A stretch of 43,672 bases of DNA from Nitrososphaerota archaeon. Lineage in GTDB: Archaea > Thermoproteota > Nitrososphaeria > Nitrososphaerales > Nitrosopumilaceae. The notes under the pieces were generated by a model. That model searched no databases. It saw only the letters and a list, made by a program, of their open reading frames with translations, and had not been told where the DNA came from. Position numbers and translations under genes: made by a program. The DNA lies in the NCBI GenBank assembly GCA_028867275.1, contig JAGWGU010000009.1, forward strand, positions 1 to 43,672. The letters run 5' to 3'. Below are positions 32,475 to 39,696 of this stretch, piece after piece; within the stretch, counting starts at the first letter, position 1; the number at the start of each line of letters is the position of its first letter.

Positions 32475-34172
32475 CTATAATTTGTTGCTAGTTGGGATAC
32501 TAAAGTAAAATGAAGTCCCCTTTCCTTCCTCGCTTTCAAACCAGATTTTTCCTCCAAGCGCATCTACAATTCCTTTACAGATTACCAGTCCAAGGCCAGT
32601 ACCACCATGTTTTCTTTTAAGTGAAGTATCAATCTGATAGAATTTTTTGAATAGGTATGGTTGTTTATCTTTGGGAATTCCAGCACCGTTATCTTTTACA
32701 TAGAATACAGCCTTATCAGAGTCCTGCTGCATGCCAATTTCTATTCTGCCACATTTTTCTGGAACAAAATCAATGGAATTTCTTATTAAATTACCAAACA
32801 CCTGAGTCAATCTGCTCTTGTCACCATAAACTGTCAAATCATCTGTTGTGGAATTGACAAATTCTATCTTTTTATCCTGCATCATAGGAGAAAACATGTC
32901 AACCATTTCTTGCATGAATATTCTTCCGGAAAAATTTTCCTTGTCAAACTTCATCTTCTGTAGATCAAGTTTTTGAGTATCAAGCATGTCACCAATTAAG
33001 CGGTCTAGCTTAATCGAGCTTTCATGGATTCTACTTATTGCATCATCCTGTTCTGCATTAAGAGTTCCCAAAAATCCAGGCTCTCTTAACATTTCACTAT
33101 ATCCATTTATTGTGACAAGAGGCGTTTTTAATTCATGAGTGACCATTGCAGTGAATTCCTCTTTTTTAATGTCTGCCTCCCGTAGTTTTTCCATGAGAAT
33201 TGTCTTTTGTCGGGTTAATCGGTATACATAGAATCCAGAGATGATCAGTATCACCACTATGACAAGGACGTAAACAAATAGCATGTCCTGAGTTGCGATT
33301 TCAGTATAATATGCATCCCCATATGGTTGGACTAGTAATACCACCCACGTATTTCCCAGTATCTTAAGTGGAGTATAGGCAATCAACATTTTTTCATTGT
33401 TGATCATTTCCACACTTGTTCCTTCTTTCCCATTTCGTGCATTCATGTAACCCTCAAGGTTTTCAAACTGTGATGCAGATACATGATTTTTATTGGAATC
33501 TGCTACAACATTGCCGTGTTGATCAAGATAGATGAGCCTACCGTTATTGCCAAGATCAATTAGATTTAATGAATCATCCATAGATTGTAGATTCAGGGCG
33601 CCCACCCAAAGCCCTATGAACGAACCATTCGTTTTAGAATAAACAGGCGTTGCAATTGATACTACGCGGTGTTTGTTATTGTCAGAAACATACACTTCAC
33701 TGATGTACTGATTATGCGTTGACATGACTCCTTTGTAATAATCCCTGTAAGAAAAATTATTTTTTGTCAGATTTAGCTGTTGTACATATGGTTCAAGAAA
33801 ATACATTTTACCATCGGGCAACAAGAAGAAGACATAGTCCAGATCTTTGCAATTTGCCAATAAACGGGTTGCAATTTCCCTTTTCTCTGGCTCAACATCA
33901 TTTGGTATTCCATGTAGTTTTTCGTCGACAAGTTCGGCATTTTTTATCGTACCAAATACAGGAGAATTTGAGGTGGTGTTCATTATAGTTGCAATTGTTT
34001 TTATTCTAACATGTGCGTCGTCTGCCAAGATCCTGACTTGATTCATTTTGTATCTCATAATTTGTTCAGTCTGATTTTGAACAATAAGTTCTGTCAAGTA
34101 AATGCTGGATCCAATAATCAATATTCCAGCAGAGGATAAAATTATGATCATTTTTACCATGGATTTATCCAA
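32475..34172 (-). CDS. membrane sensor histidine kinase with Cache sensor
   Basis: A 565-residue sensor kinase. TM1 is at about residues 8-27, an extracytoplasmic dCache-like sensor at about 30-295 (LDYVFFLLPDGKMYFLEPY, FSYRDYYKGV, TPVYSKTNGSFIGLWVGAL), and TM2 at about 298-318. The cytoplasmic part has the phospho-acceptor His346 in MVTHELKTPL, the N-box FGNLIRNSIDFVPE, G1 DNGAGIP and G2 KHGGTGLGLVICKG. There is no HAMP domain. It starts 12 bases after the matrixin gene and is the last gene of the receiver-matrixin-kinase operon. It is paralogous to the kinase at 37909. Confidence 0.92.
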   Translation of the reverse strand: MDKSMVKMIIILSSAGILIIGSSIYLTELIVQNQTEQIMRYKMNQVRILADDAHVRIKTIATIMNTTSNSPVFGTIKNAELVDEKLHGIPNDVEPEKREIATRLLANCKDLDYVFFLLPDGKMYFLEPYVQQLNLTKNNFSYRDYYKGVMSTHNQYISEVYVSDNNKHRVVSIATPVYSKTNGSFIGLWVGALNLQSMDDSLNLIDLGNNGRLIYLDQHGNVVADSNKNHVSASQFENLEGYMNARNGKEGTSVEMINNEKMLIAYTPLKILGNTWVVLLVQPYGDAYYTEIATQDMLFVYVLVIVVILIISGFYVYRLTRQKTILMEKLREADIKKEEFTAMVTHELKTPLVTINGYSEMLREPGFLGTLNAEQDDAISRIHESSIKLDRLIGDMLDTQKLDLQKMKFDKENFSGRIFMQEMVDMFSPMMQDKKIEFVNSTTDDLTVYGDKSRLTQVFGNLIRNSIDFVPEKCGRIEIGMQQDSDKAVFYVKDNGAGIPKDKQPYLFKKFYQIDTSLKRKHGGTGLGLVICKGIVDALGGKIWFESEEGKGTSFYFSIPTSNKL

Positions 34173-34184
34173 GTATGATCATAC

Positions 34185-35201
34185 CTACTTTGTACACACT
34201 ACCTTGCTGTTCTTATCACCATTATACAGTTCCTTCAATGTATCAACATCGCAGCCTGAAATGTATGGATAGTCTGGAAGTATTGGGCTCATCAAATCTT
34301 CTGAAGCAGTAGAATGCCCAAGTCCCATTGCATGTCCAAACTCGTGTCGTACAATTGCCTCAAGACTATCTGCATCAAGCTTGTTTGCTTTGTAGATTGT
34401 TATCTTGGATTTTAAGATTTGATTGCCATCAACAAGAGATTTTGTATATCCAGAATACCCGTCCGGGTTTATATCGTTTGTCAGTATGATTTCCACATCT
34501 CCCACCCCATCAGGGGAACCGTTGATATCAAACTTTTGAGGTATGTACAACTTGGTAGGCTCAGAATATGCATTTATCGCAGCTCCTTCCCATCCTACAT
34601 AATATATTGACGAAGATCCCTTTGGTCCTTTACCAGTTTGTGAATCATCTATTGATACAATTTTGGTAGACATGATTGCATTTTCCATGGCATTTATCAT
34701 GTCTTGTGGAAGATTTGCATTGTTTACTACATGTACATGAATTGTTCTTCCGTTTTCAATATTCCATGATACCCATGTATTGACGGTGTCACCTTGCAGA
34801 TTCTGGATGACATAGTTTGAATTATAATTTGACATATCATGAGCAGTCACTTTGATTATGACCTGATTCTCATAGTAAGAATAGCCCACAAATCCTATTG
34901 ACATTGTTATCGCAATTAGTGCAATCAAAGTGTAGGACTTTTTGTGAGTTTTTTGTGCTACTTTTTCATGTTCTTTAGAAATTTCTTCAAGAATATTTTT
35001 TTCTTGTTCTAGCTCTTTTCCTTTCTTAGTTTCTTCAACAAGTTTTTTCTCTAGATCTTCTTTTGATGTAGCAATATCTTTTGTTTTTTCATCTATGAGT
35101 TTGTTTTTTTCTTTGAGAAATGCGTTTTCTTGTTCTAGGTCTTTTAGTCGGTCTTTATCTGTAGATTCTAATTCTTTGCTATTTTTATCGTCTATTGTCA
35201 G
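34185..35201 (-). CDS. coiled-coil, membrane-anchored matrixin metalloprotease with probable CTG start
   Basis: A 338-residue protein if it begins at CTG 35201. Residues about 3-88 are a charged coiled coil with no ATG, GTG or TTG; the first standard codon is TTG 34928, inside the membrane helix (about 92-110). The outer domain carries the zinc site H286-EFGHAMGLGH-296 and a Met-turn (SEDLMSPIL), the matrixin hallmark. A GGAGGG site ends six bases before the CTG, and the receiver stop TAA is one codon upstream in the same frame. I infer CTG initiation by coupling; a stop-codon error making a receiver-protease fusion is the alternative. The protease should act outside the membrane while the coiled coil lies inside. 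Confidence 0.75.
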   Translation of the reverse strand: MTIDDKNSKELESTDKDRLKDLEQENAFLKEKNKLIDEKTKDIATSKEDLEKKLVEETKKGKELEQEKNILEEISKEHEKVAQKTHKKSYTLIALIAITMSIGFVGYSYYENQVIIKVTAHDMSNYNSNYVIQNLQGDTVNTWVSWNIENGRTIHVHVVNNANLPQDMINAMENAIMSTKIVSIDDSQTGKGPKGSSSIYYVGWEGAAINAYSEPTKLYIPQKFDINGSPDGVGDVEIILTNDINPDGYSGYTKSLVDGNQILKSKITIYKANKLDADSLEAIVRHEFGHAMGLGHSTASEDLMSPILPDYPYISGCDVDTLKELYNGDKNSKVVCTK

Positions 35202-35204
35202 AGT

Positions 35205-35573
35205 TTACCCTCCAATAGATTTTATCAGAGTATCTAGCTTTACGGGTTTTTTAAGACAGGAATGTATTCCCTTTTTTAGAAGATCTTGTATTTCATCTTC
35301 TTTAACGCTTGAGGCGGTAAACAAAATTATTTTGTGATTTTTTATTTTCCCTGAATTATACAGACTATTGACAATATCAACGCCTGTAAATTCCGGCATT
35401 GCAAGATCAAGCAAGACAACATCAAATTTTTGCTGCTCAATTAGTGTTAGTCCATTTCTTCCATCATTTGATACAGTACAATCATGCCCTTTGAGGGTCA
35501 GGTACTTGGATAGCATTGTTGTGATATCCTTGTTGTCATCAATCAGTAATATGTCCAGTGTTTTCCCTTTCAT
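35205..35573 (-). CDS. single-domain response regulator
   Basis: A 122-residue receiver with acidic pocket IDDNKD, phosphorylation site Asp56 in DVVLLDLAMPEFTG and Lys109 in CLKKPVK. It has no output domain. It ends naturally at LIKSIGG, matching the end of the paralogue at 37465 (LLKTIGID). It is first in an operon with the matrixin protease and a histidine kinase, so it is probably phosphorylated by that kinase. A TATA element lies about 27 bases upstream of the ATG. Confidence 0.9.
   Translation of the reverse strand: MKGKTLDILLIDDNKDITTMLSKYLTLKGHDCTVSNDGRNGLTLIEQQKFDVVLLDLAMPEFTGVDIVNSLYNSGKIKNHKIILFTASSVKEDEIQDLLKKGIHSCLKKPVKLDTLIKSIGG
35208..35213 (-). promoter_or_regulatory. Shine-Dalgarno site before CTG start of matrixin gene
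   Basis: GGAGGG inside the last codons of the receiver gene sits six bases before CTG 35201. It is the main evidence for initiation at this rare codon. Confidence 0.55.
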
Positions 35574-37464: not shown

Positions 37465-37821
37465 TTAGTCTATGCCAATAGTTTTCAGCAATACATCGGT
37501 TCCAACAGGTTTTCTTAGAACTGCATTTACACCAGTTTTACGTAGATCATTGGCCTTATCTTCTGTAACGGTAGCTGCTGTCAGAACAGTTATCTTTTGA
37601 TTTTTTATTTCACCGCTCTTGGATAATTCATTAATGACATCAAACCCTGTGAACTCTGGCATTGCCAGATCAAGTATTATGGAATCAAATTTATGTTGCC
37701 TCATAATATTCAACCCCATTCTTCCATTGGTTGTAATGGTACATTTGTTTCCCTTAAGTTCTAAAAATTTCTTCAGCATTTTATCAATCTCAGGGTTATC
37801 ATCAATTACTAAAATGTCCAT
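37465..37821 (-). CDS. single-domain response regulator
   Basis: A 118-residue receiver, paralogous to the one at 35205. It shows IDDNPE, phosphorylation site Asp51 in DSIILDLAMPEFTG and Lys104 in VLRKPVG. The open frame extends to 37872, but the TATA box at 37843-37853 puts the leaderless start at ATG 37821, and the fold begins there (MDILVIDDN). It follows the histidine kinase at 37909 with its own promoter and is its likely partner. Confidence 0.9.
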   Translation of the reverse strand: MDILVIDDNPEIDKMLKKFLELKGNKCTITTNGRMGLNIMRQHKFDSIILDLAMPEFTGFDVINELSKSGEIKNQKITVLTAATVTEDKANDLRKTGVNAVLRKPVGTDVLLKTIGID

Positions 37822-37842
37822 ATCCCATTGGGTATTAAAAAA

Positions 37843-37853
37843 TAATATATAAA
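37843..37853 (-). promoter_or_regulatory. TATA box for receiver at 37465
   Basis: TTTATATATTA on the minus strand is centred 27 bases before ATG 37821 and decides the start. Confidence 0.6.
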
Positions 37854-37908
37854 CAGGTATGATGAATTCCAAACCATTCTAACATTGAATGCATGAATCG
37901 AGTAATTG

Positions 37909-39696
37909 TCAAATCAGTTTTGGTTGTCTCGGGATTTTGAAATAAAATGTAGCACCTAAACCAGTGTCACTTTCAACCCAAATATTTCCACCCAAACCCT
38001 GTACAATTCCCCTACATATGGACAGTCCAAGACCAGTACCTCCGTGTTTTCTTTTCCACGAAGTATCTATCTGGTAAAATTTTTTAAAGAGATTTTCTTG
38101 TTTTTCTTTTGCAATTCCAATCCCGTTATCTTTTACATAAAATTCAATCTCATTTTCTAGCACGTTTGCGCCAATCTCTATTTTACCATTTGTTTCCGGA
38201 ACAAAATCAACCGAGTTCACTATCAGATTCGTAAAAATCTGGTGCAGCCTGTCCGAATCACCCCGGAATGTGATATTCTGCTTGTTCGTATTAGTAAATT
38301 CAATGTGTTTTGCATGCATCAAGGGAGAGTTGAATTTTATCACTTCCTCCAAGAACTTGTTTAATTCAATATCTTTTATCTCAAATCGCAGTTTCTCCAT
38401 GTCAAGTTTCTGCGAGGTTAGAACATCGTCGATTATTTGTTCCAATCTTGATGCGTTTCTATAAATTGCATCCACTGATTCTATTTGCTCTGAATTTAAG
38501 ACTCCAAGTAACTTTGGGTCTTTTAGCATCTCTGAATGAAATTTTATTGGAAACAAAGGTGTTCTAAGCTCATGAGACACCATTGCTGAAAACTCGTCTT
38601 TTAATTTCTCAGTCTCTTCCTTTTTTTGTAATTGTTCCTCGATTTTTCTTCTTGCTTCTGCAAGTGATTCCTGAGATTTCTGCAAAGATTCGTTTGATTT
38701 TAGGGCCAACTTACGAAGCCCAACCTGAGTTTGAAACTGCCTTTGTATCAGATAAGCAGAAATAGATGACACCATGACAATTGAAATTATCACTGTTACG
38801 GATTCGTATATTGTCAAGTTTACAGAAGAAAATGCCTCATTATAGGGATCCATCAGTATCGCATACCAAGAATTTTGCCCAGCATTTATTGAGGTGTATG
38901 CCAGATACATTTTGGTATCGTTGACAAGTTCAGTCATGGTCCCAGTTTTATCAGAAATGATACGTGTAAAGATCTTGTTATTTGTAAACAGAGGTTTGCC
39001 AATCTGATTAATCCCTTCAGAATCCGCAATTAAATTACCATTGTTATCAATTACTAAGATACGATCATCTGAATACGAACTAAATTCTCTGATTCTTTTC
39101 TGCATATGCTCTAGATCCAAAGATGCAGCCAAGATGCCTGCAAGGGAACCGTTTTGGGTAAACACGGGTACACTTATTGGCGAAATCGAATGACCAGTGG
39201 TAGCAGAGGTTACAATCGAGCTCAAATAAGGCAAATGTGTTTTTAATGATTCAATATACCAATCTCGAAAGCCAAAATTGGAAACGCTAAGACTTTGTTG
39301 CGATGAATAAGGTTCTGCCAAATACACATCTCCATTCGGTAAAACATACACCATATCTTCAAAACCAGCATATGATTTGAGAATATTTTGAAATTCCAGC
39401 CTTTTTTCATTGTCAAGATAATCTGGTATTCCATGCATATTCTGGTTGATTTCAGAGACATAAGGAGAGTTCACAACATTTGCACTATGGCTTGCAATTT
39501 CTAAAATATCTATTGCATCAAGGACTCTTAATTCTGCCCTGTTTGCAATTTGTTTGATTAGTGTGTTCTTATCGGCTTTGATTATTTCAGATTGTTGTTT
39601 GATTTGTTCTTGGGCGTACAATATTATTATAATTATTAGAATAATTACAGCACTAATCAGTATTAGAAGAAAATTCCTTGGTGTTGAAAGTTTCAA
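37909..39696 (-). CDS. membrane sensor histidine kinase with Cache sensor
   Basis: A 595-residue paralogue of the kinase at 32475. TM1 is at about residues 8-28, a dCache-like outer domain at about 30-295 (FEDMVYVLPNGDVYLAEPY, FGFRDWYIES, SVPVFTQNGSLAGILAASL), TM2 at about 298-316, and a coiled-coil linker at about 330-368. The phospho-acceptor is His375 in MVSHELRTPL, and the ATPase shows DNGIGIA and KHGGTGLGLSICRG. There is no HAMP domain. The TTG start lies about 26 bases after a TATA element (TTTATTTAATAC). It likely signals to the receiver encoded just downstream. Confidence 0.92.
   Translation of the reverse strand: MKLSTPRNFLLILISAVIILIIIIILYAQEQIKQQSEIIKADKNTLIKQIANRAELRVLDAIDILEIASHSANVVNSPYVSEINQNMHGIPDYLDNEKRLEFQNILKSYAGFEDMVYVLPNGDVYLAEPYSSQQSLSVSNFGFRDWYIESLKTHLPYLSSIVTSATTGHSISPISVPVFTQNGSLAGILAASLDLEHMQKRIREFSSYSDDRILVIDNNGNLIADSEGINQIGKPLFTNNKIFTRIISDKTGTMTELVNDTKMYLAYTSINAGQNSWYAILMDPYNEAFSSVNLTIYESVTVIISIVMVSSISAYLIQRQFQTQVGLRKLALKSNESLQKSQESLAEARRKIEEQLQKKEETEKLKDEFSAMVSHELRTPLFPIKFHSEMLKDPKLLGVLNSEQIESVDAIYRNASRLEQIIDDVLTSQKLDMEKLRFEIKDIELNKFLEEVIKFNSPLMHAKHIEFTNTNKQNITFRGDSDRLHQIFTNLIVNSVDFVPETNGKIEIGANVLENEIEFYVKDNGIGIAKEKQENLFKKFYQIDTSWKRKHGGTGLGLSICRGIVQGLGGNIWVESDTGLGATFYFKIPRQPKLI

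Follow-up and report, generated by a model that had tools for sequence, protein, structure and literature searches.

In Escherichia coli, infC and pcnB start at AUU. Archaea do not possess IF3, and its role is taken by aIF1. Of 61,358 ancestral AUG starts in bacteria, 2 became CUG and 1 became AUU (PMC5622118). In Sulfolobus, aIF1 favours discrimination against non-canonical starts (PMC6237735). A 2021 review of recoding describes non-canonical translation events in archaea as demonstrated only at elongation and termination (PMC8211752). A 2020 review names AUG, GUG and UUG as archaeal start codons, and neither CUG nor AUU occurs in its text (PMC7531240). Moreover, we found no report of CUG or AUU starts in archaea in the open-licence literature that was searched. 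Stop-start distances as short as the one described below permit reinitiation in Haloferax and E. coli (PMC10666635), which may not hold in Nitrososphaeria.

We analysed a window of 43,672 nt from a Nitrosotalea-like soil ammonia-oxidizing archaeon, whose named relatives belong to Ca. Nitrosotalea. On its minus strand a receiver gene (35573-35205) is followed by a matrixin gene (35201-34185) and then by a Cache histidine kinase gene (34172-32475). The features of this cluster are as follows.

35205..35573, minus strand: receiver (REC) gene standing alone, from an ATG start to the stop TAA 35207-35205; Pfam Response_reg E 2e-21
35208..35213, minus strand: GGAGGG as Shine-Dalgarno, in the final two receiver codons and 6 nt upstream of CTG
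35199..35201, minus strand: CTG, proposed matrixin start codon; the same column is CTG in L013, L014 and L015 and TTG in L017
34185..35201, minus strand: matrixin gene read from CTG, 338 aa; open frame, Pfam Peptidase_M10 E 6.7e-8, orthologues
34959..35174, minus strand: residues 10-81, a long amphipathic helix on the cytoplasmic side, putatively a coiled coil; AlphaFold, pN/pS, heptad test
34872..34937, minus strand: single TM helix, about residues 89-110; sequence, AlphaFold helix H87-119
34926..34928, minus strand: TTG, the earliest standard start in the matrixin frame; it falls in the TM segment and is rejected as start
34314..34346, minus strand: zinc site HEFGHAMGLGH (HExxHxxGxxH), residues 286-296, with Met-turn M304; 33 homologues
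32475..34172, minus strand: third gene of the cluster, a membrane histidine kinase with dCache_1-HisKA-HATPase_c; Pfam

Pfam confirmed the cluster of receiver, matrixin (E 6.7e-8) and dCache_1/HisKA/HATPase_c kinase that a first-pass annotation, made from the sequence, had named. A kinase gene comes after the protease gene at most of the orthologous loci. Just upstream of the window cluster, on the same strand, lie one more receiver and one more Cache kinase of these types (37465-37872 and 37909-39696), with no protease. The receiver 3′ end reads ATT GGA GGG TAA, then ACT and CTG, and from there no stop interrupts the matrixin frame until 34185. The first-pass account of this junction was accurate in coordinates and sequence: GGAGGG at 35213-35208, the TAA, an in-frame CTG at 35201, and no ATG, GTG or TTG for 91 codons from that CTG. 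The first such codon, TTG 34928, has index 92 in this frame.

A codon-usage scan of all ORFs in the window gave 23.1 bits to the 90 codons before TTG 34928, the next-best ORF reaching 6.8 bits over 14 codons. When 26 loci were scanned for upstream coding signal, the four CTG orthologues were exactly the top four of ~150 genes, and several other members of the matrixin family also ranked high. A wider scan covered a 400 kb sample of N. devanaterra, with 283 strong genes, and 340 kb of another genus. Two of the 283 genes exceeded 9 bits, one a likely frameshift and the other a UbiB-like gene, and none did so in the 340 kb. One hit of the sample, a carB-like gene of N. devanaterra (L090:11762-14974), whose conserved N-terminus seems to run on in another frame, was considered as a non-standard start and rejected; it looks like a frameshift or assembly error instead. 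Among the three groups of orthologues described below, pN/pS of the helix is 0.31 (group A), 0.24 (B) and 0.26 (C), and 0.33 overall. The helix encoded upstream of TTG 34928 is coding and under purifying selection, and the same helix starts at ATG in paralogues of the same genus and in homologues of other genera. The first-pass claim that the 91 upstream codons are translated is supported by codon usage, selection and the ATG-started helix. The first ~18 residues evolve fast (pN/pS 0.94, 0.66 and 0.72 in groups A, B and C). The precise start is therefore supported by the codon column, by Shine-Dalgarno spacing and by the maintenance of frame, and not by protein conservation.

The receiver-protease pair was present in 14 sampled species, with an ATG start for the protease gene in 0/14. 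In group A, the window, L013, L014 and L015 carry stop-NNN-CTG behind TAA or TAG, and L017 has TTG at that place; the column (CTG four times, TTG once) is conserved or exchanged only for another start codon. The codons near CTG vary, as do the length of the stretch behind it and the stops (TAA, TAG), and the share of CTG among Leu codons here is 8-12%. GGAGG-7-CTG is a good spacing, and 3 nt separate the receiver stop from CTG, a distance short enough for a termination-reinitiation pair. The 16S 3′ end was taken from three congeners, as none was found in the window's own genome; it reads CACCTCCTT and pairs with GGAGGG. This duplex has a free energy of -9.8 kcal/mol, and about 2% of random 28-mers reach -9. 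In group B the junction is TGA-GTG (L003, L007), TGA-GTA (L004, L008) or TGA-GTC (L005), followed by AAA ATT AGC, with AGT in L008. The third base of the first codon varies and ATT is constant, 11 nt from GGAG, which is rather long. In the four species of group C, GGGGG or GGAGG directly abuts CTG, ATT or ATC stands three codons on at a spacing of 9 nt, and the protease is one base out of frame with the receiver. For groups B and C, codons other than the CTG of group A must be taken as the start. We infer from these alignments that CUG is the start in group A and that B and C more probably begin at AUU or AUC, GTG being a possible start in L003 and L007.

Starts of this kind may extend to other genes, and a UbiB-like kinase offers a separate precedent for them within the genus. 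At the start column of this kinase, a standard start is absent in 30/30 Nitrosotalea species (L119-L148); the codon is ATT in 28, ATC in 1 and ATA in 1, typically with a GGAGG-like stretch upstream. The window's own genome carries the ATT form (L126, G000:C65:6063-7622). Of the other genera read, most have ATG, GTG or TTG in this column and some have ATT or ATA; as an exception, three sequences from a single genus (L169-L171) carry TTT. In group C, the helix-containing kinase downstream of the protease has no standard start for 40-45 codons (L032:6441, L033:6426), and GAGGTG stands 6-7 nt before a shared ATC in both. L034 has an upstream ATG, which weakens the case of the downstream kinase. 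We see an even chance that in Nitrosotalea and close relatives CUG, AUU, AUC and AUA are regular starts of a defined gene set (the matrixin protease, the UbiB-like kinase and the group C downstream kinase) whose starts would be kept between species as a low-yield or regulated class and be systematically truncated in present annotation.

Several other readings of the matrixin junction have to be weighed. Initiation at a different near-cognate codon would fall on ATA in the window, two codons after CTG, and on the aligned ATT or ATC in groups B and C. In its favour, ATT or ATC is kept in 9/9 species of these two groups and in C is better spaced than the first codon; AUU, AUC and AUA starts are also supported for UbiB in Nitrosotalea. 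However, the group A codon is ATA, ACA or TCA and GGAGG would stand 13 nt away, and we regard this reading as unlikely. More improbable still is partial readthrough of the receiver stop to give a receiver-helix-TM-protease fusion, with CTG as a linker Leu codon. The 10 species of groups A and B, in which receiver and protease share one frame interrupted by a single in-frame stop, would be suited to such a fusion. The stops differ, however, between TAA, TAG and TGA with no fixed context, the frames of group C are out of phase, no homologue with its N-terminus read has a receiver-matrixin fusion, and a strong Shine-Dalgarno would serve no need.

The first-pass annotation had also allowed that a miscalled or mutated TAA hides a receiver fusion. 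Comparison of orthologues for fused and separate forms, which it had proposed as a check, spoke against this, as receiver and protease are separate with a TAA, TAG or TGA stop in 14/14, and the frame is offset by one base in four. A sequencing or assembly error at the stop or start might be feared in a draft contig such as the window, but the same arrangement recurs in independent assemblies of several species and error hardly comes into question. A protease that starts at the internal TTG 34928, with the upstream helix untranslated, is the call expected from a standard gene finder. This TTG lies inside the TM helix, and in homologues the upstream helix belongs to an ATG-started protein; the sequence before the TTG has the coding score and purifying selection given above, and the orthologues have no conserved standard start. 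Orthologues that begin at this TTG behind non-coding sequence, which the first-pass annotation had named as the finding that would overturn its proposal, did not appear; their upstream helix is conserved and under purifying selection. This makes the internal start very improbable.

We consider it likely that the matrixin starts at CUG 35201, guided by the Shine-Dalgarno and probably by reinitiation, and that the product is a type II effector of the Cache kinase and receiver. The conserved start site, the selection on the coding sequence, the operon and the domains are established from sequence. The first-pass proposal of CTG as protease start is supported by the same codon in four species and TTG in a fifth. 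The GGAGG inside the last codons of the receiver would place ribosomes at CUG 35201, and local reinitiation after the receiver UAA, three bases upstream, would probably add to them. A near-cognate start would be expected to give less protease than receiver; since aIF1 favours discrimination against non-canonical starts in Sulfolobus, the yield from CUG should be low. The predicted product is a type II membrane protein with a cytoplasmic helix, one TM segment and an extracellular zinc protease. Its most likely role would be that of an effector of the linked Cache kinase and receiver, in which the helix may carry a cytoplasmic signal across the membrane.

The AlphaFold model (mean pLDDT 72.9) consists of the helix, a TM segment and a matrixin domain. 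Residues 10-81 form a single helix with pLDDT mostly 60-74, near 50 at its end. In the heptads, 45% of a/d positions are I/L/M/V/F vs 11% elsewhere (shuffle p = 0.011). The upstream codons, first described as a perfect coiled coil, do encode an amphipathic charged helix; "perfect" overstates a heptad pattern that is only moderate. KTHKK precedes the TM helix, an inside-positive arrangement that would place the helix in the cytoplasm and the protease outside. The Pfam matrixin match (33.0 bits vs a cut-off of 24) covers only profile positions 103-158. Across 33 homologues the residues of the HExxHxxGxxH site and Met-turn, H286, E287, H290, G293, H296, S297 and M304, are invariant, and so is the cysteine pair C317/C336. 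The best Foldseek matches are MMP catalytic domains, with E to 2.5e-7 and TMt mostly 0.54-0.64, in keeping with an MMP-like fold.

In relatives, a HisKA-like N-terminus without ATPase is fused to helix-TM-matrixin (L012, L018, L021, L022, L023, L026, L027, L029, L031). The carriers are other Nitrosopumilaceae and one Nitrosotalea, and Pfam confirms HisKA in L012 and L031 only. The 464-488 aa ORFs of other genera had been taken for receiver fusions; this was wrong, and they are HisKA (DHp)-helix-TM-matrixin fusions. In the window protease Pfam finds no HisKA (DHp), and the basis for a REC-DHp contact is missing. Since a HisKA without ATPase sits on the protease beside a receiver in related genera, these fusions suggest, as a tentative lead, that the receiver may act on the cytoplasmic part of the protease; we rate this as possible, on the doubtful side. 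The window gene is mosaic-looking, with receiver and helix nearer group A (L013-L017) and catalytic domain nearer B/C (L003-L011), and in L012 a protease domain of B/C type follows a HisKA-type N-terminus. The catalytic-domain tree and the helix tree disagree, and loss of HisKA as the source of the ATG-less gene therefore stays a candidate.

Taken together, an ATG-less protease in 14/14 species suggests that these archaea use starts outside the rules of gene finders. Because standard gene callers as a rule recognize no starts but ATG, GTG and TTG, such N-termini are lost; here 91 codons would go missing, among them all of the cytoplasmic part. A near-cognate start conserved between species would offer a direct handle on archaeal start-codon stringency (aIF1, aIF2), and the UbiB column a natural AUG-to-AUU exchange series.

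Lastly, we compared the locus with known systems. Like the bacterial near-cognate starts, the matrixin gene combines a strong Shine-Dalgarno with a predicted start other than AUG, GUG or UUG; unlike them, it lies in an archaeon, would use CUG, is kept across species and stands behind a two-component gene. In common with the coupled pairs of Haloferax volcanii (PMC10666635), the stop and the putative start are 3 nt apart and the Shine-Dalgarno lies in the upstream gene, whereas the start codon here would be CUG and the pair is known from sequence. The HisKA fusions (L012, L018, L021, L031) share a homologous helix, TM and protease and adjoin a receiver and often a Cache kinase; unlike the window gene, they carry HisKA (DHp) but no ATPase, and standard starts, mostly ATG, are available to them. 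Compared with matrixins (PF00413), the window protein has the HExxHxxGxxHS zinc site, the Met-turn and a fold matching MMP-7, MMP-3 and MMP-9, but has no visible cysteine-switch prodomain and begins with a cytoplasmic helix and TM segment in place of a signal peptide.
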